From: Akkermansiaceae bacterium | GTDB lineage: Bacteria; Verrucomicrobiota; Verrucomicrobiia; Verrucomicrobiales; Akkermansiaceae | DNA length: 64,000 nt | NCBI GenBank assembly: GCA_013041925.1 | Contig: JABDRB010000026.1 | Span: 1-64,000 of the forward strand | Direction: 5' to 3' | Shown here: positions 4,394 through 31,745 of the stretch, in pieces | How the letters are laid out: each line of letters opens with the position of its first letter | How positions within the stretch are numbered: the stretch's first letter is position 1 | Translations under genes and position numbers: made by a program | The notes under the pieces: model-generated | Database searches by the model: none | The model's input: the letters and a program-made list of their open reading frames with translations, nothing else | Told to the model about the DNA's origin: nothing

Positions 4394-5566
4394 TCAGGCC
4401 CCCTTGGGTTCATTGCAAATATAAAGAGACAATCCGGTGGCCTTGGCCAGAGTGATTAATTTTTGTTTTTGCTCCTCGGGTATGGGATCATCGAGATCCC
4501 AGACAAGATGCATACTTTGGCGGACCTTGGCGCGGGTATCCTTGCGCTGGGTAAGCAGGTCAATAAATCGATCTAATAGTTCTTTAGATCGGCCTGCGGA
4601 ATCAACCACAAATGAACTGCGACCGAACCAAACCGTCTCGAAAATAAAATCGTCGTCGATGCTCCCCTGCTCGCCGTCGGCACGCAGAACATCGATCCGT
4701 TTCCGTCCCAGTGGGAGACGGGGGATGGCCTCGGGGATCTTCGCTGCAGCTTCTTTATCATCGGTGAGATAGACAAAGGAATCACCACGTTTGACAAGTC
4801 TGGACAACCCGACAGGACCGGCACCCTCAACGACCACGGGCAACGGTGTCAGACCATTGATCCAGGCACTAGGTAAAGGCAAAGGCAACGATGCCTTGGC
4901 GTAGATATTGGCACGTCTCAGGTAATCATAGACGACCATCAGTAGACCGAAAAAAATCAAAGCGTAGATGACCTTCAGGTTCAGGGCATCCAAGCGGTTC
5001 GCCCTCTCCAGATCCTCTTCAAGCATCACCACGGGCGCTTCCTCCTCCATGCCGTCAAGAAATTCCGAATCGGCCGCCGCGATGGCATTATCACCACCAA
5101 CCGCCGACTCAACACTGCCGTCATCAATCCCCCCCGCGGTGCGCGATTTTTTTTCTTTTTTCCAATCTGGCGTCGCCGACTTGATATGCCGACCCAAGTA
5201 TTTCAGGTCGTCCTCATCCATCCCGGCGCGATCGAGAGAATCTGCGGCAGTATCCTCGGCAAACCGGACATCTGAGAGTTCGCTACCGCGGCTTACCTGA
5301 AGGGCCTTGCGGCTGGCTTCTTGCCGCTCCTGTTGGGCGGCAATCTCGGCACTGCGGTCCGGCTGAATCAGATTCACATAGTTTTTTGAGTTATCTTTGG
5401 CGAGAACCAGAGCCACGATGGCCAAGCCAAGCCCGATCGGACACAACCAACGGCGCGGTCCTTTGATGGAATAGACGACCCAGCACAATGGCACAATGAG
5501 CCAGACCAGCACGCTGATCCATCCAGCGTGGCTAAAGTAATCCCAATGAAAGTAATCCGCGTTCAT
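4394..5566 (-). CDS. Membrane protein of the ExbB/ExbD-TPR cluster, unknown function
   Basis: A 390-residue protein with no family I can name. Two membrane helices lie near the N terminus (residues about 15-32 and 41-57). Then comes an acidic, Ala/Glu/Asp-rich linker of about 130 residues, a third helix (about 200-217, VIYALIFFGLLMVVYDYL), and a soluble C-terminal domain of about 170 residues. Its start overlaps the stop of the upstream DUF4159 gene in an ATGA arrangement, so the two are almost certainly translationally coupled and probably work together. The topology (two helices, long linker, one helix, C-terminal domain) suits an inner-membrane scaffold. Confidence 0.7.
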   Translation of the reverse strand: MNADYFHWDYFSHAGWISVLVWLIVPLCWVVYSIKGPRRWLCPIGLGLAIVALVLAKDNSKNYVNLIQPDRSAEIAAQQERQEASRKALQVSRGSELSDVRFAEDTAADSLDRAGMDEDDLKYLGRHIKSATPDWKKEKKSRTAGGIDDGSVESAVGGDNAIAAADSEFLDGMEEEAPVVMLEEDLERANRLDALNLKVIYALIFFGLLMVVYDYLRRANIYAKASLPLPLPSAWINGLTPLPVVVEGAGPVGLSRLVKRGDSFVYLTDDKEAAAKIPEAIPRLPLGRKRIDVLRADGEQGSIDDDFIFETVWFGRSSFVVDSAGRSKELLDRFIDLLTQRKDTRAKVRQSMHLVWDLDDPIPEEQKQKLITLAKATGLSLYICNEPKGA

Positions 5567-7176
5567 TTTTTATTTTTGGAGATGGTATCGTTCCACTGGG
5601 TGAACGAGTAGTAAATCAGGTTGATTCCGAGGTTCATGGCAGCATCACGCATCTCGGGTGTGACATCGGTGTAGTTTTGCGATTTCCACGCGTCGTTCAT
5701 ATCACCGGGGTGGTAGAATGCGATCCATCGGCCGTCATGTTTGATCCCGAGGGCACGTCGGCCACCGTGGTGCCAGAATGCGGGTGCGCCTTCAGGAAAT
5801 CCATTGGGAAGCTGGTAAAGCATATCGTCATCCGGAATGTCGAGGAGCGTCTTATCGGGGAACACTTGACGGATGAAGTGGATGAACGAGTGGTGGAAAT
5901 TGCGGTGACCGGCGTCAGCAATGAGCATCCCCCCATTGATGCAGTAATCCCGAAGTATCTTAATATCTGCCGTGCTAACACGCCCCATGCGGTCGTTTCC
6001 AGTCATGTAAACAAAGGGAGGAAAACCGTCTTTCGGGTATTTTTTAAGCAAGGCGATCGAATGGCTCTCCCCTTTGCGTGCGATTTTTTTAAACCCAGTA
6101 GCTTGGGCAAAGGCACGCAGGAAATTGATGTCAGCTCCAGTCTGGTTCATGCCATCATCCCACCCGGAGCCACCGTGATCGAGACGAATGAAGCGGATTT
6201 TGTAACCATCCATACCCTCGGGCCAGCCGCCTTTGGTGCCTCCACCCTTACCCATTTTACCTGCCTTGCTGGTATTTGCCGAGTAGGTGACTTGGGTTTG
6301 TTCTTTGAGTTGCTCATCGACCTCCGTATTATCTAGGTCTGGCTGGTCGAAAATGATCGCTGAGTTAGGGCGCAGGCTGAGGGTTTTTTTCTTTTTCTTT
6401 TTAGGTTTCACCACCTTGACCATAGCGACCACGGGGTTGCCGCTCCCTTTGGGCACGCGGTAGGCTTCGACACAGCCGCCGAGGCTAAGGATGTAGGGGA
6501 TGATGACGATAATAAGGAGGTGGGTCAGGCTACTTGCGTAAAGACTGCGGCGATGACGCGGGTCACGGCCGTGGGTGCGTATATCCTCAAGCACGCGGTC
6601 GCCTACCATGGGATGACCAGAAACACGGGTGAATGCCGCAAAAACCGATCGACTGCGGATCATGGCATGGAGCCAAGCACCGTAGAGTGCCACTGCGAGA
6701 GCCGGCCAACATGCTTTCCACCAAAGTTTAAACGTGGTGGCGCCATCTTGTTTGGCTCCAGCCACCTCCAAACCCTCGTCAAGGATCGATGAAACCCCCT
6801 GCCAGACGAAGTAGACGTAGGCTGAGACGGCCAGGTAGACGATCAACATCGACACCCGGAGTAGTTGATAGGTTACCCGATTGCGCACCAAGCTTAAGAT
6901 CCCACTCAGGGCGCATGCCCCACCCATGACACCAAACAGCAGAAAACAAATCTCCAGCGCTTGGGCCGTTCCATTCGCTTCCCAAAGTGTCAACACCGAC
7001 GGGTTTTGAGCGAGGAACGCGGCCAGAACTGGAGGACCCCATTTCCACGCAGCAAACCCAAGACCGAGAAGCATCAACGCAGCCACGCTGACGACGCTCG
7101 ACTTAAAGACGGACGCGCGGGTTGGGATTTCATCGATCCACTGGTCAGGGATCTTACTCTGGTTCTTTTGTCTCAT
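5563..7176 (-). CDS. Multi-pass membrane protein with C-terminal DUF4159 domain
   Basis: 537 residues. About five membrane helices occupy roughly residues 28-235 (for example VAALMLLGLGFAAW, ICFLLFGVMGGACALSGI, LLIIVIIPYILSLGG). A basic run PKKKKKK and a Gly/Lys-rich linker follow at about 265-325, then a DUF4159 domain to the end. DUF4159 resembles a class I glutamine-amidotransferase/ThuA fold; visible pieces are FLRAFAQATG, PFVYMTGNDRMG, LRDYCINGGMLIADAG and AFYHPGDMNDAW. In other bacteria DUF4159 proteins often occur with MoxR/DUF58/VWA genes; here the neighbours are ExbB/ExbD. The gene overlaps the next one by 4 bp and starts 54 bp after the TonB-like stub. No catalytic Cys is evident, so it may be a binding rather than an enzymatic domain. 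Confidence 0.8.
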   Translation of the reverse strand: MRQKNQSKIPDQWIDEIPTRASVFKSSVVSVAALMLLGLGFAAWKWGPPVLAAFLAQNPSVLTLWEANGTAQALEICFLLFGVMGGACALSGILSLVRNRVTYQLLRVSMLIVYLAVSAYVYFVWQGVSSILDEGLEVAGAKQDGATTFKLWWKACWPALAVALYGAWLHAMIRSRSVFAAFTRVSGHPMVGDRVLEDIRTHGRDPRHRRSLYASSLTHLLIIVIIPYILSLGGCVEAYRVPKGSGNPVVAMVKVVKPKKKKKKTLSLRPNSAIIFDQPDLDNTEVDEQLKEQTQVTYSANTSKAGKMGKGGGTKGGWPEGMDGYKIRFIRLDHGGSGWDDGMNQTGADINFLRAFAQATGFKKIARKGESHSIALLKKYPKDGFPPFVYMTGNDRMGRVSTADIKILRDYCINGGMLIADAGHRNFHHSFIHFIRQVFPDKTLLDIPDDDMLYQLPNGFPEGAPAFWHHGGRRALGIKHDGRWIAFYHPGDMNDAWKSQNYTDVTPEMRDAAMNLGINLIYYSFTQWNDTISKNKK

Positions 7177-7230
7177 TCTCAGGATGATGGCTATAAGGGC
7201 ACTGGCTCAATGACAGGGATTTCCGACCTC

Positions 7231-7692
7231 TTACTTAAAGAGGTCTTCCTCGTCGTCCTCGGGCTTGGGTAAGGTTGGGCCGGTCGCCTTTTTATTGATC
7301 TCCTGCTCGATTGCCGACTTGGGTTTCTCGGGTTCAGGGCTGGGATTTTCTTGTGACTTCTTGGGGGAACTCTCCTTGCTCGGAGCCTTAGGCGCCCTCT
7401 TTACGCCGCCAGCAAATTGGCTACTCAGGTCCTGGGGCTTAAGGTCATAATCCTCGGCAATTTCACGCAGAGCGACGGTGGCTTCACGCATCGCGGCATC
7501 CATCCGATTTTTCTCGCTCATCTCGGAAAGATCTTCTCCGGCGATGGCTTTGTAGAGATAAGGAAAACTGCTGCCGACAAGTAGGATGGCGTGCACGATC
7601 ACGGTAAAGATGATAATCGACTTCAGGCTACTCCCCTGGAAGTGTTCCATCAGCTGATCCGGTGTTGTTTCTTCTTTCTGTGTATCTATCAT
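7231..7692 (-). CDS. TonB/TolA-like single-pass protein lacking a recognisable C-terminal domain
   Basis: 153 residues: a short cytoplasmic N terminus, one membrane helix (about residues 25-43, IIIFTVIVHAILLVGSSF), a helical charged stretch, then a Pro/Lys/Ser/Glu-rich tail (EKPKSAIEQEINKK) ending DDEEDLFK. One N-terminal anchor plus a Pro/Lys-rich extended periplasmic segment is the TonB/TolA plan, and the gene follows exbB-exbD-exbD directly, where tonB or tolA would be expected. Unlike TonB it has no globular C-terminal domain and ends in an acidic tail. Assignment as an energy-transducing partner is inference from position and composition; no TonB family motif is present. Confidence 0.6.
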   Translation of the reverse strand: MIDTQKEETTPDQLMEHFQGSSLKSIIIFTVIVHAILLVGSSFPYLYKAIAGEDLSEMSEKNRMDAAMREATVALREIAEDYDLKPQDLSSQFAGGVKRAPKAPSKESSPKKSQENPSPEPEKPKSAIEQEINKKATGPTLPKPEDDEEDLFK

Positions 7693-7747
7693 GTTTGTTC
7701 GTTTTTGAATTGTTAAATTGGTTTAGTTCACTTGGTAAATCATCGTT

Positions 7748-8167
7748 TTATGGCTGTTTTTCACCGACGGCTTCGATGATCCCGCCTGCCGCTGCGATCG
7801 CTTTAATGACGGGTTCAAACGTCTCCTTAGGCAACGAGCTATCGCACTTAAACTGGACGTGCCGTTGGTCGTCGGAAATAGTACTGGTGAGCAGCGCCCT
7901 GACACCCCACTCGACATCCTTGGCATTATCAACGCGGGTGCCATCAAAAAAGATTTCGCCATTTTCATCCACCGCGATTCGAGCCACGACCACGGCCTGC
8001 ATTTTTTTGACATGTTCGGAAAGCGGAAGCACGACTTGCATCTTTTTATCCTTCGACACCTCGCTACAGACCATAAAAAAAATGATCAGGAGAAAGGCGA
8101 TGTCGCCCATGCTCGCAATGGGCACGGGGACGGCTCGGCGTTTCTTACTCTGGGGTCGTTTTTTCAT
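7748..8167 (-). CDS. exbD: ExbD/TolR-type biopolymer transport protein (second copy)
   Basis: 139 residues with a basic cytoplasmic N terminus, a single membrane helix (about 20-38) containing MGDIAFLLIIFFMVCSEV, and a periplasmic ExbD/TolR domain. The Asp in the helix (GDIAFLL) matches the proton-path Asp of ExbD/TolR/MotB proteins. The family works as a rotor-stator pair with ExbB/TolQ in the inner membrane, using proton motive force to act on periplasmic partners. It begins 6 bp after the first exbD and precedes the TonB-like stub. The periplasmic half differs strongly from the first copy (DENGEIFFDGTRV, WGVRALLTSTISDDQRHVQF), so the two are probably not interchangeable. Confidence 0.9.
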   Translation of the reverse strand: MKKRPQSKKRRAVPVPIASMGDIAFLLIIFFMVCSEVSKDKKMQVVLPLSEHVKKMQAVVVARIAVDENGEIFFDGTRVDNAKDVEWGVRALLTSTISDDQRHVQFKCDSSLPKETFEPVIKAIAAAGGIIEAVGEKQP

Positions 8168-8173
8168 GGTTGA

Positions 8174-8587
8174 TTAATCCTCCTCGACGATGGCCACAAC
8201 TCCCTGATGGGCACTGATCGCGGCAAGGGCTTGAAAATAGTTATCGTAAGGGGTGCCGTTGGTTGACTCGAGCATGATCACGCGTTTGGCGGGTTCTTTC
8301 TCACCCAACTCCAATGCCTCAAGACGCTCATTGAGGAGCTCGACGCTTACTTTTTTGTCGTTAAAAAAGATCTCGATGCCACGCAGGTTGACAATGGGCG
8401 TTTTATCCGACTGGCTTTGACTTGCTTTCTCACCTGAAGGCAAATCAGCGGCGATTGACTTGACCTTCACCAAGGTGGTAGCCACCAAGAAGTAGATGAT
8501 GAGCAGGAACGCAATATCTGAGAAGGACCCGGTCGGGATTTCTCCCGTGCGGTGCTTCTTTTCCTTGCTGTAGCGTTTTCTCGACAT
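8174..8587 (-). CDS. exbD: ExbD/TolR-type biopolymer transport protein (first copy)
   Basis: 137 residues: Lys/Arg-rich N terminus, one membrane helix with SFSDIAFLLIIYFLVATT (proton-path Asp near residue 24), and a periplasmic ExbD domain ending QGVVAIVEED. It lies 6 bp downstream of exbB and 6 bp upstream of the second exbD. Paired exbD genes after one exbB are seen in several envelope systems, where two different ExbD chains may assemble asymmetrically inside the ExbB pentamer; whether that happens here is not visible from sequence. Confidence 0.9.
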   Translation of the reverse strand: MSRKRYSKEKKHRTGEIPTGSFSDIAFLLIIYFLVATTLVKVKSIAADLPSGEKASQSQSDKTPIVNLRGIEIFFNDKKVSVELLNERLEALELGEKEPAKRVIMLESTNGTPYDNYFQALAAISAHQGVVAIVEED

Positions 8588-8593
8588 GAGTGA

Positions 8594-9238
8594 TTAGTGA
8601 TGCGTCAAGATAAACTCGACCACCTCGCTGGTGCCTTCCTCGATTTCGAGTTCGATTTCGTCACTCCAGCGGTTAAACACACTTTGGGGGATAACCGCCA
8701 GGAGGGCAACGATCAAGCCGACCGCGGTGGTTACCATGGCTTCAGCGATTCCGTCAGCTACGGCGCCGCCGCTACCACCGACGCTTCCAGCATCCGCGAG
8801 TCCAGCGAAGGAGGCGATCATACCGGTAACCGTTCCCGTCATCCCCAGAAGAGGGGCGGCCGTTCCGATGGTGGTCAGGACGTCGAGGCGTTTGTTCACC
8901 ACGCTCATTGCTTGGGCACTGTAGTCCTCCATCACCTGGCCAACAACCAGGCGCATGGTCTCAGAACTCTCCTTTTTACCGTGAAGGTGGGAATACGAGC
9001 GAAGACCTGCGAGCATTACGGATGCAATTGGACCGTGAGCTGATTCACACTGCGAAATGGCAGCTTCGATATTGTTATTGCGGAGATGAGTGAGCACCTT
9101 CGCGCGCAGTGATCGGGTGTCGATCTTGCGGTTGACGCGGAATGCTCTCCAGCGGTCATAGACCACGGCTAGGCTGATCAGGCTGCAAATAACCAATGGG
9201 ACCATTATAGGTCCGCCTGTTAAGATTTTTTCTAACAT
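8594..9238 (-). CDS. exbB: MotA/TolQ/ExbB proton channel family protein
   Basis: 214 residues, typical of the family. Helix 1 is near the start (GPIMVPLVICSLISLAVVYD). A cytoplasmic region of about 90 residues follows, then the two conserved channel helices: TIGTAAPLLGMTGTVTGMI (about 125-145) and EAMVTTAVGLIVALLAVIP (about 165-185). The Gly/Thr-rich motifs are the family signature. It forms the oligomeric inner-membrane motor that encloses ExbD helices and uses proton motive force. It is followed within 6 bp by exbD and preceded (18 bp) by the 112-residue protein, in one operon with the giant TPR proteins. Confidence 0.92.
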   Translation of the reverse strand: MLEKILTGGPIMVPLVICSLISLAVVYDRWRAFRVNRKIDTRSLRAKVLTHLRNNNIEAAISQCESAHGPIASVMLAGLRSYSHLHGKKESSETMRLVVGQVMEDYSAQAMSVVNKRLDVLTTIGTAAPLLGMTGTVTGMIASFAGLADAGSVGGSGGAVADGIAEAMVTTAVGLIVALLAVIPQSVFNRWSDEIELEIEEGTSEVVEFILTHH

Positions 9239-9256
9239 TATTAATAGACTTAGTGT

Positions 9257-9595
9257 TTAGTTTTTCGGTTCAGTAGTAAGGAAATTGAGAACGCGCAGGG
9301 CATCGCGTGCTGTGAGGCCGCAGCAGCTATAGCGCAGTGATTCGGCTGGTTCAATTACAAGTTTGCCTGTGGCATGATTGTAATGCGTATGCCGGGCGTC
9401 GGAAATCGGTATTCGGTCGAAGTATCGACGCCGTGAGACTGAGAGAAGCACCAATTCATCCTCCATGACACAGAGCCAGAGAGGGGTTTTACGCCACCAG
9501 CGTCCGGTATCGACCCGCGTTTTTGTACGGAGTCGAAGCCGCGGTTGGGCATCGCCCACGATATCGCAGAGGAGTTGTTGTTCGAGTGCTTTCAT
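9257..9595 (-). CDS. Small hypothetical protein, possible PH-like fold
   Basis: 112 residues, no signal peptide or membrane helix, so cytoplasmic. The pattern WWRKTPLWLCVMEDELVLLSVSRRRYFDRIPI, split by short loops, looks like a run of beta strands and resembles bacterial PH-like domains; the last 20 residues form a helix (ARDALRVLNFLTTEP). I do not recognise a named family. It sits between the giant TPR gene (20 bp) and exbB (18 bp), so it is probably co-translated and could regulate or attach to the motor on its cytoplasmic side. Function unknown. Confidence 0.6.
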   Translation of the reverse strand: MKALEQQLLCDIVGDAQPRLRLRTKTRVDTGRWWRKTPLWLCVMEDELVLLSVSRRRYFDRIPISDARHTHYNHATGKLVIEPAESLRYSCCGLTARDALRVLNFLTTEPKN

Positions 9596-9615
9596 GAGAG
9601 GAATCAGTAAATGTA

Positions 9616-12600
9616 TTAGCGTCTTTTATTCGCCTCTTTCAAGGACTCCAGCATTCTTTCACGCGCTAGGGTCTCCTTCTTGATGATGGATTCGAATACG
9701 GGATCAGCGAGTCGGCCACGCGAATACTTAGCCCATTTGCTATCGGGAAAATCGAAGGTGACGCGGCGGTAGATCTGGTAAGCTGAGCGCTTTGCCTCTC
9801 CGCGCGATTTCCAACCCGTGCTGGGGCTACGCTCGTGACTGAGTCCACACCAGTAGAGCGCCTGAGCACGGATGTCTCGGTCGTCATATTCCTCATTATT
9901 GATGACAATTTCAAACCCGGCGATCGCTTTTTTATATTGGTGAGCGCGCATGTAGTTTTGAGCGGCGCTGAGCCCGGAGAGTCCAGCAAGCGGGTTATCA
10001 GGGAAGCGCTCCTGCAATTTGGAATAGACCATGGCCGCTTTGAGGAATTCGGGGTAGGATAGTTCATCGAGACGCAGTACTTCCGCCTTTGATTCGACGT
10101 CTTCTTTTTCACGCAGTAGGTCGGCTTGTTTTTTATGTAGCATGCCTTTTTTCCTAAAGTATCCACCGAGACGGGCCATCACGGTGGGGATCAACTCGTC
10201 GTCAGGGTACTTGTAGGCGAGTTTGACATATTCCTCAACCGAGTTTTCGATCTCCCCCATTTTTTCGTATACGAGGGCGGTCTTGAATTGCGCCTTAGAG
10301 GCGAACTCGGTATCGGGGTAGTCGGTAGGTATTTTTGAGAACCGAGCAAGGGCGTCTTGGTAGAGTGGTAGTTTGGCCTCGTCGTTTTTCGAGAGGTCGG
10401 CGTATTCCTGAGCGAGGTTGCCGAGCAGGTATTCCGCATGGGCACGCATCTCATCATCACGGTGGGTTGCGAGGGCCTCGGTGAGAAGTTTGCGGGCCTG
10501 CCCCATCTCGCGGCGGGCGAGGCTTTCCTGATCCATCTTACGGTGTTTTTTAGCGAGCTCAAAAAAGCACTCGGCAAGGGTAAAGCTGGTCTTCACCGCC
10601 ATCTGGTCACCGGAGTAACGCTTACTGAATGGCTCGATGATGCCATCGGCACCCTTATTGACGGAAACGGTCCGTTGTTGTAACGGGTCTTCGCCTGACG
10701 CGGCGTAGGTGACGCTGATGTCATCCCCGTAGTGGATTGGGAATCCGTTGAGCTCAACAGGAGGAAGCTCCGCTGGAATTTTACTATCCGCATAGCTGAT
10801 GGAGAAAACGCCTTTGAAAATTCCGCTGTGGTGCTCGGTTTCGCTAATTTTGTAGACGGCGGATGCGCCACTGCTGCCCTTCAGGGTCACTGATACCGTA
10901 TCGCGTTCTGGGCTCTGATCGAGGCCGCGAGCAATCAGGCGGATATAGACTTTTTCACCCACAAATGCGCTGCGCAGGGTGCGGTTGAAGTTACCGTTCA
11001 TCACGGAGAGGAAGGCGTGGCTACCAACGGTGAACGACATGGTTTTCCACTGCACTTTGTCGTCGGCATCTTTGTAAGGGTAACCAACGTGGATGAGATC
11101 ACCGGCACGGACGGCGAGCCCATCAGGGATGGCGGAAGCAGACATAGCTTCGGCCGCCTTAGTGGCAAAACTGCGTGCTGGGGGATCACCGAGGATCAGA
11201 GGCAAGGAAAAGGAGAACCGTCCTTGCTCAAGAGGCGTGGCATTAGTTTGCGGGCGGGTGTTAGTGCCGGCGGTGTAGCCACTGGGAATCAAGGTCGGGC
11301 TACCAGTGAGCGCACCGGTCAGCTTCAACGTTCCGGGGACACGGACGTCAAAGACCTTATCGGAGGAAACTTTCGCAGCCTTACGGGCAGCGTCGGTTTG
11401 AATGTAAGCTCTGATTTCGCTGCTCTTGGCAAGTGCAAGATGAGGCGCCACGACATCGAAGCGCAAGGATGATCCAACCACCGCCTTCAGTGACGTTTGC
11501 GCGAGGCTGGGCTCATCGATATAATTGTAATTCAGGGTGCGGCGAATCTGCACGACTTCGGGGCCGAGGTCTCGTTTACGTTGACTGCCCGCGCTCGTAT
11601 GGGTGATAGCTTCATCGTCAGGGATCGGGGACACGGGCAGGAGTTTGCTTGTCGCATGGTAAGCCGCGAGCTTGGGGGTGCCATACTTCGCGTGCTCGAT
11701 GATGACGTTACGATCGGCGGGGATGCCGGGGTCGAGGTTTTCCATATCGCGGTAGGTCGCGGTGATGGTGCCACCTTCTGGAAGCTTGATTTCAGAATCG
11801 CGCTCGGGGTTACCAGATACGGGGAAGACGCGGCCAATGAAGCGACCGCTGTGGACTTCCGTTTCTACCGCCTTGATCATAACTTTTTCACCTTCGCTGG
11901 TGGTGATATGAATATCCACGGTATCGCGTTGCGGGCCGCTGTCCATATCGGCATCGTCAATGACTAAGGCCACGGCGTCGTCAAATTTAAAGCGGCGGAT
12001 GGTTTCTGGCTCAAAAACCCGCCCCTCATCGGTTTGTGTATAATTGAGGAATGAGGCGGTAATCGTCGCCGTATTAAAGGCAACGGTCAGGCTTTTATCG
12101 TGTCGCGTGCGGCGTGGCGTGGCTGAGCGTGAGTCATCGTAGCGCACGTTGACTCGATCACCAGGCAAGACCTCGAGTTGTCCGTTTTCACGGAGCGCCT
12201 TAAAGTCTTGGGCAACCGGCAGTAGCGTATTGCCTTTTCGGTCGCTTAGAGTGACTGTTTTCACCGTCGGGGCGACACCTTGGAACCCCTGAACCACAAG
12301 ACGGACAAGGCGGGCTTGACTGCGGTCACCGAAGGCGACGTCAATTCCGGTATCGGTTTCTGTGATAGTGGCTGGCTGGAGGATTGATTGACGCGCGCCT
12401 TCAGGGAACTGGACGGGGTCGAACATAGTATCCGGGCAGGGTTCGAGTTTCTCCTTACCAGGGACGTCACACATAATAACGGGTTTACGTTTTTTTAACG
12501 TATTGGCTGCCTCGGTGCGCCAGACCTGAATTTCGTGTAATCCTGGGCCGAACTCGCGCTCGATGGTGAGTGGATCATCAGATTTTTCTGTGGAGGGACG

Positions 12601-17025: not shown

Positions 17026-17069
17026 TAGAAATAAAAATGGGTAAGTTGTTCGGTGCTTTTAGCGACTCC

Positions 17070-23000: not shown

Positions 23001-24923
23001 CATGTTGATCCATGCCATGACCTTCCATGATTCGATTTTGTTGGCTTTGAGTCCATCGGCGATGGACTTGCGCATAGCGGCTTCGAGTGGATGCGGTTTG
23101 CATTTCGCAGGATAGCGTTTTTTGAGTTCAGCCATGCCACGATGGCGTTGAGCGAGGTAGAGGATACCAGGCGCATACTTGGTGACATTGACTTTGTTGG
23201 CAGCTTCGATCTCTTTCCAAATCGGATCAGAACCAGATATTCCTGTGGTGATTGCATTACGGGCTAGCCTCTGGGCCTCTGGGCTGGTGTCCTTTAGCAG
23301 CTCGGGAATCGCCTCAGGAGTCATTAAGGTGATCGCTTTCAGTTGGGCATAGACTGCGGGGGTTTTAGGTTGCTTCGAGCGATAGTCTGCCCACAGTTTT
23401 TTGAACAAAGCGATACGCTGGTTAGGAGCAGCCTTTGAGTCGAGTGCCGCGGCTTTGATTTTTACGGCAAAAGCCTTGGACTCCTTTATCTTCTGATCAC
23501 GTGTTTTATTGCCGCCTGGTCTCCCAGCATAGTGCCAAAGTTGATCGGCGTAACGGCCGTCTAGCTCTACAGCGCCGAGTCGCCAAGCCTCGGGGCCAAG
23601 CAGAGCTGTGATCATTTTATTAAAGTCTTTGTCTGTGCCACCCGCAGCAATTGCACGGATCAACGAGGCTTTAGGGTTGAGGTTCTGCGCCAGTGATGGG
23701 GCGAGTTTTTGCGCCTCCTGTGGAGTGACTCGGTTCCAAGGTTTTTCTAGCAAAAGAACGCCGACCCGGCTTTTCATCACCTTAGAATTAGCCTTGAGGT
23801 AGTCTCTCACCGCTTTGACCTGATGGGGGATGACTGAATTATTCGCGTAATATCCATTGCTCCACGACTGCAATAAGTCGGCAAGCTGAAGCGGCGTGAG
23901 TCGAGGAATGGCGGCTACGATCGGTGCCATTTTGGCATCGATTTCATCAGGCCAGTACTTCGCAGGATCACCACGGTAGTGACGCCCACGGCTACCTCCG
24001 GCCCACCCCGTTTGCACCCATTGGGCGTATTGAGGGTATTTCACCAGAAGTGCCTTGGCTTCAGCCACCGGTGGTGAGATCATCTTGCCGGCAAGTTTCC
24101 CTTGGTTGTAGCCTTTGACCGATACCGCCCAGTCCAAGCGCAGTGCCATTTCTTGATTAAAGGTCATGGCCTTGGAGAGTTTTCTATAATTGGTGACGAG
24201 TTCTGCGTTCACAGAAACTGGCAGTTCGATGGCGGTATCGACTTGCTTGAGCAGCCAGTTGAAATAATTGCGATACTCAACCTGCAGCAGTTCGGTTGAC
24301 AGCCCTGCCTTAATACAGGCGTGCAGTCGGGCGGAAACCGCGATGGGGTCCTTGCGGAGGACCGCTTTATCAAGGAACCAGGCGTCGAACTGATGCGCCC
24401 GCGGGCAAACCATGACGCGGTTGCCATCGTTACGCCCGAAGGCGTAGGCACCGCTTTCGTCTTTGAGTTGATAAATCAACAGGGAATAGACAGATTGAAC
24501 CGCATCGTCCGCAGTCGCGGATTTCAGGTCAGCTTTTTTGAGATACTGCTGGTAGATGGCGACGGCACTCTTCCAGTCGCCGCTGAGTTCTGCAGCTTGT
24601 CCCGCGTAGTAGAGCAGCATACCGTTTTCCGGCAGGTTTTGTCGTAGCCATTTTTGAGTTTCGGCGATCGCTTGGGTGGGCTTGCCTTCCTTAATGCCAG
24701 CTTTCAGCAGGGAGATGATGGCGTCTTCGGATTGGGTTCCGATGGAAGCGGTGACCGTCTTGCGTTGTTCCTCAAATGTGGCAGCGGAAGCAGGGATTAC
24801 CAGCGAGCTAAGGAGAACCAACCCCAAAGAAGTGCCCAAGATCCAAATTTTCTTACCAGAAGATCGATGCACTGTTCTGATGGCGAAGGAGTCCCTTGGA
24901 TTCGCGTGTGTTGGAATAGTCAT
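17070..24923 (-). CDS. Giant exported helical-repeat/beta-domain protein, 2617 aa (paralogue A)
   Basis: Signal peptide near residues 25-48 (WILGTSLGLVLLSSLVIPASA). The plan matches paralogue B: helical repeats to about 1080, beta domains near 1120 (VTLVDPTLAVSGAGTEIEVVVW), 1308 (VIDPDRSRTAGIDELSVSV), 1794 (VVNDADMDISVEPDTLKITV) and 2174 (LGGDVSDKNDTVSVLM), a PA14-like piece near 1574 (MLAVDGRPITS, SPGVHRFEIW), and C-terminal TPRs from about 2340. Two differences stand out: a charged coiled-coil insertion at about 1218-1298 (ADMEKQMEAMEGKNRDATEA) and an Asp/Pro/Ala/Ser/Lys micro-repeat near 2235-2250. The gene starts 66 bp after the 781-residue TPR protein and ends 44 bp before paralogue B. 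Probably a long periplasmic scaffold; function unknown. Confidence 0.8.
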   Translation of the reverse strand: MTIPTHANPRDSFAIRTVHRSSGKKIWILGTSLGLVLLSSLVIPASAATFEEQRKTVTASIGTQSEDAIISLLKAGIKEGKPTQAIAETQKWLRQNLPENGMLLYYAGQAAELSGDWKSAVAIYQQYLKKADLKSATADDAVQSVYSLLIYQLKDESGAYAFGRNDGNRVMVCPRAHQFDAWFLDKAVLRKDPIAVSARLHACIKAGLSTELLQVEYRNYFNWLLKQVDTAIELPVSVNAELVTNYRKLSKAMTFNQEMALRLDWAVSVKGYNQGKLAGKMISPPVAEAKALLVKYPQYAQWVQTGWAGGSRGRHYRGDPAKYWPDEIDAKMAPIVAAIPRLTPLQLADLLQSWSNGYYANNSVIPHQVKAVRDYLKANSKVMKSRVGVLLLEKPWNRVTPQEAQKLAPSLAQNLNPKASLIRAIAAGGTDKDFNKMITALLGPEAWRLGAVELDGRYADQLWHYAGRPGGNKTRDQKIKESKAFAVKIKAAALDSKAAPNQRIALFKKLWADYRSKQPKTPAVYAQLKAITLMTPEAIPELLKDTSPEAQRLARNAITTGISGSDPIWKEIEAANKVNVTKYAPGILYLAQRHRGMAELKKRYPAKCKPHPLEAAMRKSIADGLKANKIESWKVMAWINMQYPDDNAEQIKLIQALVKSPLWKTMPFELQNAAYEWFKKDVMTPAQIAIVNSTDPAIACKDLLALPQKAVVAPKKGNPAEIIAPQTDVATAVAALTKAIEAIKKSPTRMEVWASNQVGALDPAVFSDPQVFSLIVDLIELNVMPASGDAFPRSLLTAVKKKQDPVVIHKVAYTLWESVRVMRHQYILPQTLTFAQSLEDTQPSAAYAMAVTGQIVFPDPANGRKVDPARDTRRLKTLRSKAAMNMGLMVIPVAKNNPTYPIYKSQGDWLTGNEDSAWELCDENWEQLIPIHRDLNVSYLNWVLQRVIYSRDEIRQEEFVKVLLNWAAEPTSPLTPEEKIGIELAYGDIAMQRGQLREAHQIYSKTQGNKAYEGVVARYQSTLRKADAERIGKDFDAALKTLGLLELERIPEMWSPARYARAVVYYDMEEYDDSADDIESILAREPNHGEAKILLGKVQLKRKKLMEATEIEVTPGSSQTTLVPGEKLKVTLVDPTLAVSGAGTEIEVVVWAKSGDKETFFLRQFGDQKTKFRGEVATALGAPKEGDRILQVIGDDEVFYAYSERFRKKMNNMPEKRGGPITIASNSTLMASSRKLLTEDEQRIADMEKQMEAMEGKNRDATEAELANLAKVERAAAAGRKLVTGEGGASEKKEKESPVETRVKPGSPIHVRVIDPDRSRTAGIDELSVSVASSSGDFISRITLKETDTHSGWFEGSVPTAGAQAMAFAQHSEPGRNPNMVLSPETSYPAWQPVIVKGKTPEFNVDLNDNVELGEMTINANEQGSKLKKWMLLTGMNPREMIPVAAYPKNQLTLKNPWQPSVTVMNDTDKLHASSKGRKEFDLREMSEHLNRGWLSQKYAQGVSANVAGASEALTKSLYQSINWKRQNNHNVSSVIYRFQGYFYEPTEVKRQFRLELGKFKIPPKTHSSINHKPKFMLAVDGRPITSKSGGRLEGSINLSPGVHRFEIWAAGWVANLGFGRGVKLLTNLKGDEALVDCPDSFFDPSQFPKGVLAHRNATASISANDAGTEFKVKFAPESRARLFKLVFFKSEGPIPALNKLSLATPDGKKVLPVAEDYAKLNKNNTLEILTGDKISVRYVDDRFVTKSFEKRERFLQVAFSTAKVEFADIKPRYSSKDKKDMPYYEKLLRFPYGQPLSLVVNDADMDISVEPDTLKITVQSEAGGNREFIATETGPSTGVFEAIMTPVPTPVSGKDEIQVAEGGTLTATYRDQENTEPGVPTDRYATIGHAAFTLPQLSLSQPTVTAIDFSTNAEDLPGYRSLAEGFIPMDEWQRRVETDSARKAREAGRGLIQPSWSISHKLFPTTKPPEGGFQSVHGRRMYIELLAPQFALGTSSTIAVYAQTDSGRKLAQVPLDSKVFDLNVPGTIELIGHLTPPSGAYGDKWRGTPQIESYTENNHKLWSSNAALDRFTMDVPLIAGHQPNHGILSSDERYELIQKARNGELPYEEYSKLKVAGLIVLPGEHVHIGTQYKDQSGASQWLTTTTKVVTHPVFDVMENDFRVARTSAYVGETISLRVVDLGGDVSDKNDTVSVLMQAKSGAKHRVELRESTSHSGIFKGSYSLSYLKALDVSDPASKSADPADPASKPAQHNVHRDGFPVLYDDVVAMRYTASNGLKSPTRMITISKGSDGTIKPFSKKYDDPEIAMRTQFSLAESYLELAKSHRKLGKAEMAAREYVRAKQLLAKAMDQFKDPETRSHAEYLLGNLSLEEANDTQDLEIKETRYRAALSRFMNVVGTYPNTLHASKAQYRIASVYEKLKQPDIAAQEYVKLAYKYPDSEYLATAMAKLGSYFLRSAATYEREAKQLLADVDNKDAQFKGAAKQVLAEREYIKTAQIFGRLQQRFPSDPLAGKAGIRAGQAYMRAKKHNEALAAFLHVVNDHAYDGKTLRSQGMYWAGMCYQSLRQPMAAYSIYKRLTYDFPESKWAAYARGQLSQGALQKLENELEIERLEQGR
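18177..18223. repeat. 30-bp spaced direct micro-repeat inside the 2617-aa gene
   Basis: A 17-base word starting tttgcttgcagg occurs at 18177-18193 and again at 18207-18223, 30 bp apart. It encodes DPASKSADPA then DPASKP on the minus strand, an Asp-Pro-Ala-Ser-Lys linker between the beta domain and the C-terminal TPR block. Likely replication slippage in a flexible linker. Confidence 0.6.
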
Positions 24924-24989
24924 TCGAATGATGATCGGATTTGGGTGTTATAAAAAACTTAATCGGGAGTGGCGGAATCAGGCGCGTGA

Positions 24990-27335
24990 TTACTCACCGT
25001 TGGAATTTGCAGATTCTGCTTCGATGCCGGCGAGCTTTTGGCGGGCCTCCGTGATGTGTTTGCTGGACGGATAATCGGTGATCAGCTGACGGAGTTTTGC
25101 CTTGGCGATCTCGTTGTCGCCCATGCGATAACCGACGTTCGACCAGAGCAAGAGCATTTCATCGAGGAACGCGGCGTCTGGGTAATCGCTAAAGACGCTG
25201 TCAAGGAGGTCGGCAGCCATGGAGAAGTTTTCGGTATTGACGTAATGGCGGACCACACGACCGAGGGATTCGGCAGCGAATGAGCTCTCTGGATAGGTTT
25301 CGTAGGTCTTGCGGTAGGCTGCGATGGCTCCGCCCATAGCTTTTTGCAGGGCGGTGGCAGGAGAGATTCCCGCCTTCCCCCACTTACTGTTGTGTTGGTC
25401 AGAGGCTTTAATCGATTCCTCGGCTTGTTTCTGCAGGACTTCACCGATGCGGAACTGGGCCTCGGCTGCGGAGATCGGGTTTTGAAGTTGGAGTACACGT
25501 TGGTAGGATTCCACTGATTTTTGGAAGTCGCCCTTATCGGCTAGGCTACGGCCGAGGGTCATCAGCGCCTGATCGGCGAGCACGGACTCGGGGTAGAGGC
25601 GGTTAAAAGCAAGGCAAGTGGAGGTAGCGGCTTGGTAGTCGGATTTCAGCAGCTCACTTTCCCATTTGAGTTTGAATGAATTCTCCACCAGATCGCCGGG
25701 AAGTTTTTTGCGATTGATGATGATCGGGTCGATTTTCGCGAGGGCTTCTTTGGCGCGCAGGGATGCGCGTTGATCGAGGCCCATATCTTTATAAATTCCG
25801 CCGAGTCCATTAAGAGCTTCGGCTTCGACCGAGCTTTTGCGTGCTTTGAGCAAAGCATCGAACACGACATACTGGTCGGCAGAGACGCCGGAGTTGACCG
25901 ATCCTGAGACTTTGATGGTGGCATCGCTTTCGCGCGGATCATCGCCGTAGAGGTGGACATCGTCCGTGTAGGTGACACGAAGTTCATCGAGCTCGTCGGT
26001 ATGGAGGATGGCGTCGGATTGATCAGGTTCGACACCCTGTTCGGTGGGGGCCAGTTTAATTTTCCCCATAAAGATGCCAGTGCGAATCTCTGGCCCCTCG
26101 GAAATTTCCACAAGGGTGACCGTGATGCTGTCGCGTTCTTTCCAGACATCTTTTTCATCATCCTCGAGGGCGAAGATATCGATCGTGCTCTCGGATTCGG
26201 CATCGGCCTGAGCCTCGACTTTATAACGGGACGTGACGGTGAGCGTAACCTTTTCTGCGCCAGCTGTTTTATCAAGGTCGGCATCGCGCAACATCAGCAC
26301 CTGAGGCTGACCTGGGTAGGCAATGTAGGCTGGGGTCGAGTAATCGCCAAGGAAGAAGCCAACGGTTCCAGTGCTCACAGCGCGAACCTTCCCGGTGCGC
26401 GGCACACCTTTCTTGCCGTCCATCGTGCTATCGTCGAGATAAGTGACAGTCAGGGTGTCGCCACCAATCATTTGCAGCACGCCATCGCCAGGTTTGGCAT
26501 CGCCTAGGGCGGTGGGTGCGGAAGCGAGCATTTCATGTTTTTTACCTGCCACGGGCACGCCTGTGATAATTTCAGTATCGCCACTGCTAACGGTGATTTT
26601 TGCGGTCACTGGCTGGTCGAGCTTGCGCATGACCGGCACATCGGCATCGACAATTTTGGCATAAAACCGCTGACCGATCTCGATTCTACCGAGTTCTTCA
26701 CCTGCGTCCTCAACCTCCGTGCCGACCAGAGACAACGAGTCGATCGCTTTGTTCCAGTTTTTTAAATTGTAGTGGCTCATGCCGATGTAGTAGTAGGCTT
26801 TGTTGGCCCACTTCGTTTTACCGGCGACCTCGGTGAGGCGGCGGAACAAGGGGAAACAAGCGGAATACTGACCTGCCTGATACTGGCTGAAGCCGGCCTG
26901 GAAAAGTGCCTCGTGGTAAAGTTCCTGTGCGGTTTCAGATTGCTTTTCGCCAGGTTCGGGAGCAAGCAGGCGGGTGAGCAGGAGAAAGTGGCTGAGTGCC
27001 TCTTTGTTTTTATGCAACCCGAGATAGTGTTTCCCCATCGACATATGGGCCATATGGGCGAGGGTGGACCCTTGGTTATCACGCACCACGGTGTTGAGCA
27101 TGGTGAGGCCACGTTCGTATTGTTTATATTCCATCAACTCCATTGCCTTGTCATAGAGGTGCTTGGCTCGGCGGTCGATGTCGGCAGAAACGCGGGATCG
27201 TGAGCTATTGGCCTTCTCGGGCTGGGCCTTATTCCCTTTCCCCTTACGCTGAGCGTGGGAAGTTACTGGCAGTGCCAACAATAAGGTCAGAAGAACCAAG
27301 ACTTGTTTTGTATTCACTGAACTAGAATATTTCAT
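24990..27335 (-). CDS. Exported TPR protein with central beta domains, 781 aa
   Basis: I chose the ATG ending at 27335 because it begins a clean signal peptide (KQVLVLLTLLLALPVTSHAQ). In-frame starts at 27353 and 27422 add residues without a better leader. TPRs run to about residue 200 (YDKAMELMEYKQYERGLTML, ALSHFLLLTRLL). A central beta region (about 215-500) carries the same motifs as the giants (LMLRDADLDKTAGAEKVTLTV, RTGIFMGKIKL). TPRs follow to the end (FQKSVESYQRVLQLQNP, LLDSVFSDYPDAAF, LRQLITDYPSSKHITEARQKL). It looks like a reduced version of the giant proteins, in the same operon. Predicted periplasmic; partners are probably the giants and the ExbB/ExbD motor. Confidence 0.75.
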   Translation of the reverse strand: MKYSSSVNTKQVLVLLTLLLALPVTSHAQRKGKGNKAQPEKANSSRSRVSADIDRRAKHLYDKAMELMEYKQYERGLTMLNTVVRDNQGSTLAHMAHMSMGKHYLGLHKNKEALSHFLLLTRLLAPEPGEKQSETAQELYHEALFQAGFSQYQAGQYSACFPLFRRLTEVAGKTKWANKAYYYIGMSHYNLKNWNKAIDSLSLVGTEVEDAGEELGRIEIGQRFYAKIVDADVPVMRKLDQPVTAKITVSSGDTEIITGVPVAGKKHEMLASAPTALGDAKPGDGVLQMIGGDTLTVTYLDDSTMDGKKGVPRTGKVRAVSTGTVGFFLGDYSTPAYIAYPGQPQVLMLRDADLDKTAGAEKVTLTVTSRYKVEAQADAESESTIDIFALEDDEKDVWKERDSITVTLVEISEGPEIRTGIFMGKIKLAPTEQGVEPDQSDAILHTDELDELRVTYTDDVHLYGDDPRESDATIKVSGSVNSGVSADQYVVFDALLKARKSSVEAEALNGLGGIYKDMGLDQRASLRAKEALAKIDPIIINRKKLPGDLVENSFKLKWESELLKSDYQAATSTCLAFNRLYPESVLADQALMTLGRSLADKGDFQKSVESYQRVLQLQNPISAAEAQFRIGEVLQKQAEESIKASDQHNSKWGKAGISPATALQKAMGGAIAAYRKTYETYPESSFAAESLGRVVRHYVNTENFSMAADLLDSVFSDYPDAAFLDEMLLLWSNVGYRMGDNEIAKAKLRQLITDYPSSKHITEARQKLAGIEAESANSNGE

Positions 27336-27488
27336 TATCTTATAAAGTTTCATCGGATGACTGATTAATAGAGATTTTAAATGCGCTGCATGGAAGAGAT
27401 GCAATACAGAGGGCAAAAACAAGGAGCAAAGGTAATATTTTCATGCGCTGATCAACGGTCCCCATCACGGGTAAGGTTAATGGGGTAA

Positions 27489-29228
27489 TCATTCCTCTGC
27501 CGTGGACTCACCACCGGTGAGCGCAACACCGTAGCTTTCCAGACGGTTATGCGCTTCACTGGACTCGCCGCTTTTTGGGTAGCGGCGCAGGACCATACGA
27601 AGTTGCTGCACTTCCTTGCCTTTGTTTCCACTGATGCGGTAGATGTCAGCAATTTTCAAACTGGCCTTGGATGCTGTGCCGCCACCGACTGACTCGAGTC
27701 CCTGGACGGTTTTGACGGCCTGCGGGTATTGCTTGAGTGCCACCATGCAGTCGGTGACGCCCCAAGTTGAGTCGGGTTGTTTGTTGGCTCCGCGGTAGGC
27801 TTTGATCGCTTCTTCGTAGCGGCCCAATCCTTGAAGCAGCCTAGCCTGTGACAAGCCGAGCGCCTGACCCGCATACTTGGGTGCTTTTTGCAATGCTGGG
27901 ATTTCAGCCAGCGCTTTTTCCATAAACGGTCTATTCCGGTGGCTTCGTGCGTTGTAATAATCAAAGCGCGACTTTGCAGCAAATGCCTTGTCCTTGATTC
28001 TGGAGAAATAGCGTAATACAAATTCTTCTGGCTCATAATAAGCGGAAAAGTTGGCTAGGTTCTTGATTCCCTCATCCGTCATGCCATCGGTACTAACCGA
28101 GCGCATGACAGCCCGTGACTCCCCATACATACTCAGCGGGTATCTCAACTTACCCATCAGCTTCATTTTCTCCGCCGTCTTCATCCCTGCGAGAAACGGC
28201 TTGCTTTCGCTGGCAAAAAACGCAGAGCGCATTTTGGGATCGCTGGAGTAATATCCGCACCACGTCAACACACGAGCAAGTGTAGCAGGTTGCCTTTTAT
28301 ACTGCTTTTCTAGGCGTGCCAGCCAGGTCTTGCTGTCCTTTTCATAGACATTTTGGAGATCGAACCACTGCTTGCGCAAGCCATCCTTATCTGCAAAGCG
28401 ATCACCCATTTTGGAACTCCAATAGCGGGCGACCTTCTCCTTCTTATCCTGCTCCGTGTCCTTCATTTGCTGAGCCTTACTGAGAACCGTGGACCAGTAG
28501 CGCATATCCACGTCTGGTTTGTCAGTTTTTTGGCCCCGGCCATCAAAGCCGCCCGCCGCAACATAGAACTCCTTGAGCTTATCATGGTTTGGACTGCGCG
28601 TGACGTAGTGGCTTATCACGGCGCGGCGGGCAGCCTCGGCCGCGCGATGGTTCGTTTTTGAAAATGCAACGGCGGTGCGCCAGTGGTATTCAGCAGCCTC
28701 CTCGAATTTCCCGAGTTTTGCCATGGCTCCTCCGAGGTAAGTCAGGGCGGTGCCGGAGTTTGGCTGAGCCACATAATCGTCATCCTTAACCATACGAGCC
28801 CATACGGCGTTCTGTTTGGCGGTATCTCCATTTTGTTGGTGACACAGCCCCATATAAAAGAGCGCACCAGCGGCGTAGCTGACATCATCAGGAAAGTAGT
28901 CAACGACATCCTGGTAGGCCTTTATGGCGGCGTGACGTTTATCGATCTGATGCAGACAACGCCCCATGCGCAACAGGACGTAGGGGAGGGCCTTGCTATT
29001 GACGAACTCGAACGAATACGCCTTGTAGGCGGCATAAGCACCTTTGTAATCGCCCTTTTTATAAAGTTTATCGGCGTCCTCTAGGTTCAGCCCCTCGAAG
29101 GTATCTAATTTGGCAAACGCCTTACTTGGATAGAGGATTTCATCACCTGCCCTTTGTGCCGCGTCAACTTGAATGACTCCCGCCTGAAGCACCAGCAGCA
29201 GGCATCCACTTTTTAATAGATTTTTCAT
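27489..29228 (-). CDS. Exported TPR protein, first gene of the ExbB/ExbD-TPR cluster, 579 aa
   Basis: I chose the ATG ending at 29228, which starts a signal peptide (KNLLKSGCLLLVLQAGVIQV, cleavage near DAA-Q); an ATG ten codons upstream (29258) is possible. The mature protein is helical: TPRs at about 35-170 (LYKKGDYKGAYAAYKAYSFE, HAAIKAYQDVVDYFPDD, KFEEAAEYHWRTAVAF), a less regular middle, and TPRs again near the C terminus (RYEEAIKAYRGANKQP, QLRMVLRRYPKSGESSEAH). No beta domains. It is the most upstream gene of the cluster; the next gene starts about 150 bp later. Probably a periplasmic scaffold or adaptor. Exact function unknown. Confidence 0.75.
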   Translation of the reverse strand: MKNLLKSGCLLLVLQAGVIQVDAAQRAGDEILYPSKAFAKLDTFEGLNLEDADKLYKKGDYKGAYAAYKAYSFEFVNSKALPYVLLRMGRCLHQIDKRHAAIKAYQDVVDYFPDDVSYAAGALFYMGLCHQQNGDTAKQNAVWARMVKDDDYVAQPNSGTALTYLGGAMAKLGKFEEAAEYHWRTAVAFSKTNHRAAEAARRAVISHYVTRSPNHDKLKEFYVAAGGFDGRGQKTDKPDVDMRYWSTVLSKAQQMKDTEQDKKEKVARYWSSKMGDRFADKDGLRKQWFDLQNVYEKDSKTWLARLEKQYKRQPATLARVLTWCGYYSSDPKMRSAFFASESKPFLAGMKTAEKMKLMGKLRYPLSMYGESRAVMRSVSTDGMTDEGIKNLANFSAYYEPEEFVLRYFSRIKDKAFAAKSRFDYYNARSHRNRPFMEKALAEIPALQKAPKYAGQALGLSQARLLQGLGRYEEAIKAYRGANKQPDSTWGVTDCMVALKQYPQAVKTVQGLESVGGGTASKASLKIADIYRISGNKGKEVQQLRMVLRRYPKSGESSEAHNRLESYGVALTGGESTAEE

Positions 29229-29271
29229 AATTCTTGAGAACAAGTCAGCTCGATTCATGGCTCACGACTAT

Positions 29272-31579: not shown

Positions 31580-31671
31580 TAAAAAAGACGGTGTAGAGAG
31601 ACGGTAATCACTACGATAAGTATTTTCTGAGATTCGAGTGTGAGTCATACAGTTAGCGGACAAACAAGAAA

Positions 31672-31745
31672 CCCAGGGGATCCCCCCCCGGGCTTAAAAT
31701 GCGATCCCCCTTGCAGGGGTAATAATCAACGCGCCCCTCGCGGGG
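31672..31745 (-). terminator. Three GC-rich hairpins after the Gfo/Idh gene, the last with a T-rich tail
   Basis: Read on the minus strand: CCCC-GCGA-GGGG (31734-31745), CCCC-TGCAAG-GGGG (31706-31719), then a larger hairpin at 31672-31692 built on GGGG-GAT-CCCC flanked by CCC and GGG and followed by TTTCTTGTTTG. The last fits an intrinsic terminator for the oxidoreductase gene whose stop is 31790. Confidence 0.45.

Follow-up and report, generated by a model that had tools for sequence, protein, structure and literature searches.

The 64,000-nucleotide stretch analysed here (the window; positions 1 to 64,000 of contig JABDRB010000026.1 of an Akkermansiaceae bacterium, assembly GCA_013041925.1) carries at 4394-29258 a block of eleven tightly packed minus-strand genes for an ExbB, two ExbDs, two giant exported proteins and their partners, which we read as a proton motive force (PMF)-driven trans-envelope force machine with two transducers pulling the giants and with polymer handling as the most speculative part. 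Taken as a whole, this reading has in our estimate slightly better than an even chance; that the block encodes a PMF-driven transducer machine is quite probable, and the handling of polymers, given such a machine, falls somewhat short of even. The case is built on the parts list of the block, conserved residues, exact co-occurrence of its components and predicted folds. PMF-driven 5:2 motors have very few known jobs (Ton, Tol, flagella, gliding and Zorya), and this list would be extended by a conserved new client set that comes with a transducer type of its own; the DUF4159 family, which has a member in the block, would at the same time gain a role.

The eleven genes, described in an earlier note on this DNA (the original prediction) as overlapping or closely spaced, were all found, with intergenic gaps of 66, 66, 44, 20, 18, 6, 6, 55, 54 and -4 bp, and a twelfth exported gene (PDZ/DUF6288/HEAT), located 137 bp beyond the eleventh, extends the block (Table 1). 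The host genome of 3.28 Mb is 98% complete. Pfam recognises the ExbB (MotA_ExbB, 3.7e-26), the two ExbDs (2.7e-16 and 4.8e-17) and the DUF4159 protein (7e-27). Four exported proteins (589, 810, 2617 and 2469 aa) contain tetratricopeptide repeats (TPRs) by Pfam, in agreement with the four exported TPR proteins, two of them above 2400 aa, that had been predicted. The terminator scan gave no strong terminator-like site between the block genes on the operon strand and one upstream of the block (31669-31695), and a promoter scan of the block returned no more candidates than shuffled sequences.

The ExbB of the block can be aligned with solved ExbB/TolQ proteins, and the counterparts of the TolQ Thr, Thr and Glu, placed by alignment to E. 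coli TolQ, are kept almost throughout the family (T136 and T171 in 41/41, E166 in 40/41). Aligned to E. coli TolR, both ExbDs retain the proton-binding aspartate, as Asp24 of ExbD1 in 39/39 and Asp22 of ExbD2 in 37/37 sequences. The initial assignment of an ExbB and two ExbDs is borne out by these residues, which are those expected of a TolQ/ExbB-TolR/ExbD 5:2 proton motor, and by alignment ExbB appears as a pentamer-type channel accompanied by an ExbD1 and an ExbD2 that differ from each other and have both retained the residues of the proton path. Phylogenetically, the ExbBs of the giant system form one branch (support 98/91) separate from the six other ExbBs of the host genome, although the latter sit on long branches. 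The host genome has, elsewhere, a further ExbB/ExbD locus that includes a TonB-like protein, and the giant-linked motor is therefore taken not to be the host's Ton system. The best NCBIfam model for the ExbB was TolQ, below its cut-off. A reading of the motor as the ZorAB motor of Zorya defence was dropped, as nine block proteins including ExbB and the ExbDs gave no ZorA/ZorB match in PADLOC at E<=0.01.

Transducers of the TolA/TonB type are defined in a recent paper (PMC12204202) by a motor-binding helix with an SHLS motif, a motor box following this helix and a reach into the periplasm. Two block proteins are candidates for such a role. In the first, the stub that had been termed TonB/TolA-like, residues F29, T30, H34, S42, D150 and F152 are invariant in 24 sequences, in support of that term, and nearly every stub from the other lineages retains the transmembrane (TM) His. 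The second is the DUF4159 protein, which the original prediction had correctly placed in the membrane and in DUF4159, the latter confirmed by Pfam, but which we propose is better described as a second TonB/TolA-type force transducer. Its S215 and H219 are invariant in 31/31 relatives, and S/T-x3-H is present in 39/47 DUF4159 proteins over all lineages, compared to only 6/798 TM-like segments of other proteins from the same loci and 2/189 TM1-4 segments of the DUF4159 proteins themselves. By sequence, both proteins have the [S/T]-x3-H helix of a TonB/TolA-type transducer, with T30/H34 in the stub.

A stretch of the DUF4159 protein, NPVVAMVKVVK, is conserved 28-38 residues past His219 and followed by a lysine run; its distance from the His is similar to that in E. 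coli TolA and TonB (sequences taken from NC_000913), and NPVVAMVKVV lies in near register with SIDAVMV of TolA and PISVTMV of TonB, but is modelled as disordered. The AlphaFold model has a TM-linker-domain topology, in which four helices precede the S-x3-H helix and about 85 disordered basic linker residues precede the end domain. The closest match of this end domain is 4i66, a DUF4159 crystal structure (Z 22.9); weaker matches are to class-I glutamine amidotransferase (GATase), ThuA and IFT52 folds. The positive-inside pattern before TM5 suggests that the end domain is periplasmic. No TonB/TolA C-terminal domain was detected, Pfam returning only DUF4159 for this protein and the stub having no globular domain. 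A von Willebrand factor A (vWA) fold was also considered for the DUF4159 protein and set aside, as Pfam gave no vWA and the listed Foldseek and VIA matches were GATase-like, though absence from these lists is no proof and does not exclude vWA. No paper mentioning DUF4159 was found in the literature searched.

The giants, which range from 2300 to 3000 aa across the system, are the putative clients of this motor. Residues 1040-2145 of Giant1 were modelled with a mean pLDDT of 84.4 and a pTM of 0.72, and their best structural match is a Nitrosopumilus surface-layer (S-layer) protein (Foldseek 5.5e-22; VIA Z 15.9, 219 residues, 4.8 Å), while an NCBIfam anammox S-layer family matches residues 1614-1761 (1.4e-10). 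No S-layer anchoring domain was identified in the giants. Residues 1274-1597 match CBM32/discoidin domains, including clostridial CBM32s, with Z scores of 12-14.5, among them a sialidase CBM32 (1wcq; VIA Z 14.5, 2.5 Å, 127 residues) and galactose oxidase (VIA Z 14.5), and Pfam F5_F8_type_C is found here at 1.3e-4, below cut-off. Judged from the models, the giants look built for sugar binding and resemble S-layer proteins. TPR810 matches TIGR02795 (YbgF/CpoB TPR) with 99.5 bits, above the cut-off of 90.1, and NCBIfam also finds a YbgF/CpoB-type TPR, below cut-off, at the C-termini of the giants. Distant giants are recognisable only from about profile position 800 onward, indicating that the N-terminal half diverges faster.

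Giants and motor are also linked by their joint distribution. Giants were called with profile A1 (best match >250 bits) and motor-type DUF4159 by an independent search with profile A4 at a threshold of E <= 1e-60 fixed in advance. Among 289 evenly drawn Verrucomicrobiota genomes of at least 90% completeness, giants are present in 20, from 16 families, and motor-type DUF4159 in the identical 20; in Planctomycetota, the 8/195 genomes with giants are the same eight that carry motor-type DUF4159, two of which (G322 and G319) had already been met through giant loci. The co-occurrence that the original prediction proposed as a check is thus exact in both samples. The nominal probability of about 3e-31 for the Verrucomicrobiota set overstates independence, because the genomes are related. 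Although giant-linked DUF4159 proteins were the source of A4 and weak copies may escape the fast first-look search, a giant-free genome carrying the motor-type DUF4159 subfamily would have surfaced.

Of the 57 giant loci whose downstream sequence extends for 3 kb or more, five have no motor genes (L056, L061, L099, L127 and L128). Giants without exbB/exbD/DUF4159 neighbours had been named beforehand as a finding that would count against a common system, and this has partly come about, in the form of orphan copies in multi-giant genomes, but every giant genome tested has a motor-type DUF4159 elsewhere. The motorless loci were consequently dropped as a refutation, motor-type DUF4159 being present on other contigs in G314, G269, G322, G326 and G324; in G314 and G269, the motor module as such is on a separate contig from the giants. 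Genome G322 has seven giants against one close and one divergent motor module, and giant clusters outnumber close motor-type DUF4159 genes in G326 and G335, suggesting that one motor probably serves several giants. The divergent second module of G322 (L165, G322:C222, 6890-13710) has an ExbB, two ExbDs, a stub-like protein that contains several TM segments and has DDFLKLD at its end, a DUF4159 protein of 659 aa in which S-x3-H is present, and a TPR protein; the module adjoins a DUF6288-like HEAT protein.

Scanning 84,980 species genomes with the giant profile gave 58 loci, all of them, doubtful bins aside, in bacteria of the Planctomycetes-Verrucomicrobia-Chlamydiae (PVC) type, and the recurrence of the same block in dozens of PVC genomes indicates that it is more than chance. 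The recurring order is TPR589, TPR810, giant(s), small protein, ExbB, ExbD1, ExbD2, stub, DUF4159, W390 and, in some, DUF6288; the deeper lineages have a single giant. In a second order, the giant comes first, followed by TPR589, TPR810, ExbB, ExbD1, ExbD2, stub and DUF4159, and in a third, PSCyt/PSD1 and DUF1501 genes precede TPR810, giant, ExbB, ExbD, ExbD, stub, DUF4159 and TPR589. That the gene set is kept through at least three rearranged orders argues for a joint function rather than common ancestry of one stretch. The DUF6288/PDZ/HEAT gene stays a neighbour in many relatives, and in L056 and L061 a second cluster consists of TPR810-Giant2-Giant1-DUF6288 and has no motor genes, which suggests that DUF6288 goes with the giants and not with the motor.

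Hence, we propose that proton flow would turn the ExbD1/ExbD2 dimer within ExbB, that the stub and the DUF4159 protein would dock on ExbB through their conserved His, and that the DUF4159 arm and the terminal peptide of the stub would act on the giants by pulling at their YbgF/CpoB-type TPR domains. At its most speculative, this mechanism would have the giants bind a glycan or surface polymer, which the pull might capture, strip or move across the outer membrane, a single motor driving several interchangeable giants as one TonB drives many receptors. Glycan or surface-polymer handling is our best guess at the role. Planctomycetes of species other than the carriers found here take up dextran into the periplasm by unknown means and in a CCCP (carbonyl cyanide m-chlorophenylhydrazone)-blocked manner (PMC5394234), which calls for an energised uptake system in those species. 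For polysaccharides, the way in which Planctomycetes take them up has been called 'analogous but unknown' (PMC5520146), and both papers show that macromolecule uptake in Planctomycetes is active. With the giant system, PVC bacteria would have a concrete candidate for the energised handling of polymers, CCCP-blocked macromolecule uptake having been seen among them with no machine known for it (PMC5394234). We also speculated that it is a third PMF-powered outer-membrane machine beside Ton and Tol, in which one ExbB/ExbD1/ExbD2 motor, two transducers and interchangeable glycan-binding S-layer-like giants serve the import or handling of large polymers with no TonB-dependent receptor involved, but in this extended form the proposal is doubtful.

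Several points weigh against the proposed force machine or its role. The block has no outer-membrane channel, leaving the passage of polymers unexplained; two giant-bearing genomes have only 1 and 9 sulfatases, so sulfatase/CAZyme neighbours are no rule; and carriers make up only about 4-7% of genomes (about 4% of the Planctomycetota sample), which means that the system cannot be the general planctomycetal uptake route. The full SHLS motif, with Leu at H+7 and Ser at H+11 as in E. coli, was not found, the DUF4159 protein having Ile/Leu at H+7 and Leu/Met in place of Ser at H+11, and the stub a Ser at H+8. Some members of the DUF1501-linked clade lack the His in both helices (H to Y in DUF4159), as do a few giant-first clade members in the DUF4159 protein. 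The conserved core of the giants consists of the beta half and the C-terminal TPR. Finally, the proposal is computational, and sugar binding by the CBM32-like domain is a prediction from models.

The closest precedent is an uncharacterised PVC class predicted in 2025, comprising TPR, TolQ-like and two TolR-like proteins and a vWA force transducer (Mol Biol Evol, PMC12204202). As described there, the class shares with the giant system a TolQ-type motor, a pair of differing TolR-like proteins, a TPR gene alongside, the host phyla, and a downstream transducer with an S-x3-H helix, a disordered linker and a Rossmann-like end domain; the motor box of the class has a candidate counterpart in the motor-box-like stretch of the DUF4159 protein. 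A TPR gene, a tolQ-like gene and two different tolR-like genes upstream of the transducer are present in the window and its relatives. In contrast to the vWA class as described there, a DUF4159 end domain of class-I GATase/ThuA-like fold (closest 4i66) takes the place of vWA, the DUF4159 protein has five TM helices instead of a single N-terminal one, and a separate His-helix stub and giants with CBM32-like and S-layer-like domains are added. The label 'undescribed' in the original prediction holds in that no account of the giant system was found in the literature searched, but has to be qualified by this sister class.

The claim that the block is an envelope machine unlike plain Tol-Pal or Ton is well supported by the motor residues, the synteny in several arrangements, the co-occurrence in two phyla and the separate ExbB branch. 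With Tol-Pal (TolQRAB-Pal-CpoB), the giant system has in common a TolQ/TolR-type motor, a TolA-like S-x3-H helix with a motor-box-like strand and YbgF/CpoB-type TPRs, whereas it lacks the TolA C-terminal domain, TolB and Pal and has giants, an accessory spread and two TolR-like proteins. With Ton (ExbB-ExbD-TonB and receptors), it shares an ExbB/ExbD motor, a TonB-type anchor helix and probably the use of one motor for several partners, but it has neither the TonB C-terminal domain nor a TonB-dependent receptor. As predicted, the twelve block genes include no TolB or Pal by Pfam and NCBIfam and no TonB-dependent receptor by Pfam. The beta half of the giants resembles in fold the S-layer proteins of Nitrosopumilus maritimus (8c8m), the anammox protein Kustd1514 and CBM32 modules, from which the giants differ by their long TPR/solenoid halves and by their tie to a PMF motor.

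Among the alternatives, an envelope-integrity or surface-layer machine, in which the motor pulls on the giants and so keeps the outer membrane, or a coat of the S-layer kind, attached to the cell body in analogy to Tol-Pal, comes first, though we consider it unlikely. The S-layer-like folds and anammox S-layer profile match of the giants, the CpoB/YbgF-type TPRs and the sub-threshold TolQ match of ExbB would suit it; however, the sporadic spread (20/289 and 8/195) and up to seven giants per genome fit an accessory, substrate-specific role better, and the block has no Pal, TolB or OmpA-like peptidoglycan-binding domain. In the gliding machinery AglRQS-Glt, too, TPR partners accompany a TolQR-type motor that has two TolR-like proteins, and giant TPR scaffolds carrying a surface adhesin (the CBM32-like domain) along the cell can be envisaged on this model; a glycan-binding fold could serve as the substrate contact, and a gliding role has been proposed for the vWA transducers of PVC bacteria (PMC12204202). 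No Glt or gliding-family match was obtained in Pfam/NCBIfam for the block proteins, though, and no cytoplasmic track or polarity protein was recognised in the block; we hold a gliding motor to be rather improbable. Least probable is an ordinary Ton-type energiser to which giants, TPR proteins and DUF4159 are merely linked as a polysaccharide-utilisation or other exported module, an idea suggested by the sugar-degradation genes next door (alpha-L-rhamnosidase, sulfatases, GH95) but opposed by the exact co-occurrence even with giants and motor on different contigs, the gene sets preserved through rearrangement, the separate ExbB/ExbD locus with its TonB-like protein and other ExbB loci in the genome, and sulfatase numbers not linked to giants.

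The neighbouring genes in question, at 29472-63979 of the window, encode alpha-L-rhamnosidase, sulfatases, PhoD, GH95 and a putative alpha-galactosidase-like protein, and the terminator-like site at 31669-31695 separates the operon from all of these sugar genes but the last. A reading as a sulfated-polysaccharide utilisation locus was rejected; sulfatases are abundant in most giant genomes, but not in the two mentioned above, and the sugar genes of the window were not established as conserved neighbours of the block.

Table 1. Features of the giant-motor block and its adjoining twelfth gene in the window.
Feature	Position	Strand	Basis or remark
TPR589, exported TPR protein, first gene of block	27489..29258	-	YbgF/CpoB-type TPR below cut-off
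TPR810, exported TPR protein with one copy of the giants' beta domain	24990..27422	-	TIGR02795
Giant2, 2617 aa; alpha-solenoid/TPR N-half, beta-domain region, C-terminal TPR	17070..24923	-	
Giant1, 2469 aa; architecture as Giant2, paralogue of Giant2	9616..17025	-	
Giant1 residues 1040-2145, predicted S-layer-like Ig domains	10591..13908	-	model, structural matches, NCBIfam
Giant1 residues ~1274-1597, predicted CBM32/discoidin-like (F5/8 type C) domain with inserted beta domain	12235..13206	-	
Small conserved protein, 112 aa, no TM, no signal peptide	9257..9595	-	
ExbB/TolQ-type putative proton channel subunit	8594..9238	-	Pfam, residue alignment
ExbD1	8174..8587	-	Pfam; Asp24
ExbD2	7748..8167	-	Pfam; Asp22
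TonB/TolA-like stub; one TM with T30-x3-H34, helical/disordered tail, conserved C-terminal D-L/I-F peptide	7231..7692	-	
DUF4159 protein; 4 TM plus TM5 (S215-x3-H219), motor-box-like strand, basic linker, probably periplasmic GATase-like domain	5563..7176	-	
S-x3-H motif in TM5, DUF4159 protein residues 215-219	6520..6534	-	
Motor-box-like stretch NPVVAMVKVVK, DUF4159 protein residues 247-257	6406..6438	-	
W390, 390-aa protein with three TM segments, conserved in part of family	4394..5566	-	
Exported PDZ/DUF6288/HEAT protein, conserved last gene in two-giant clade	279..4256	-	

The true start of TPR810 is probably downstream of the TTG. The label 'PH-like', originally given to the 112-aa protein, had to be abandoned, since the protein has no Pfam match and its PDB matches are at chance level; the family is nonetheless conserved. 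Homologs sought for W390 likewise amounted to chance matches. In the draft genome of Rubritalea profundi (L060), TPR810 and both giants are each split over two frames, reflecting either real decay or assembly errors.

Genes of the planctomycete-type families PSCyt1/DUF1549/DUF1553 and DUF1501 adjoin the giant cluster in L023, L024, L025, L027, L092 and L096 (checked by Pfam in L024, L025, L092 and L096), and are thus linked to the giant system by adjacency; no paper pairing DUF1501 with ExbD was found in the literature searched. In two relatives, L032 (6897-7280) and L022 (3535-3918), ExbB and ExbD1 are separated by an inserted gene for a protein of 127 aa and four helices (Pfam 23S_rRNA_IVP, also bAvd-like). 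In L148/L149 (G334:C3, Planctomycetota), the motor module contains two tandem DUF4159 genes.

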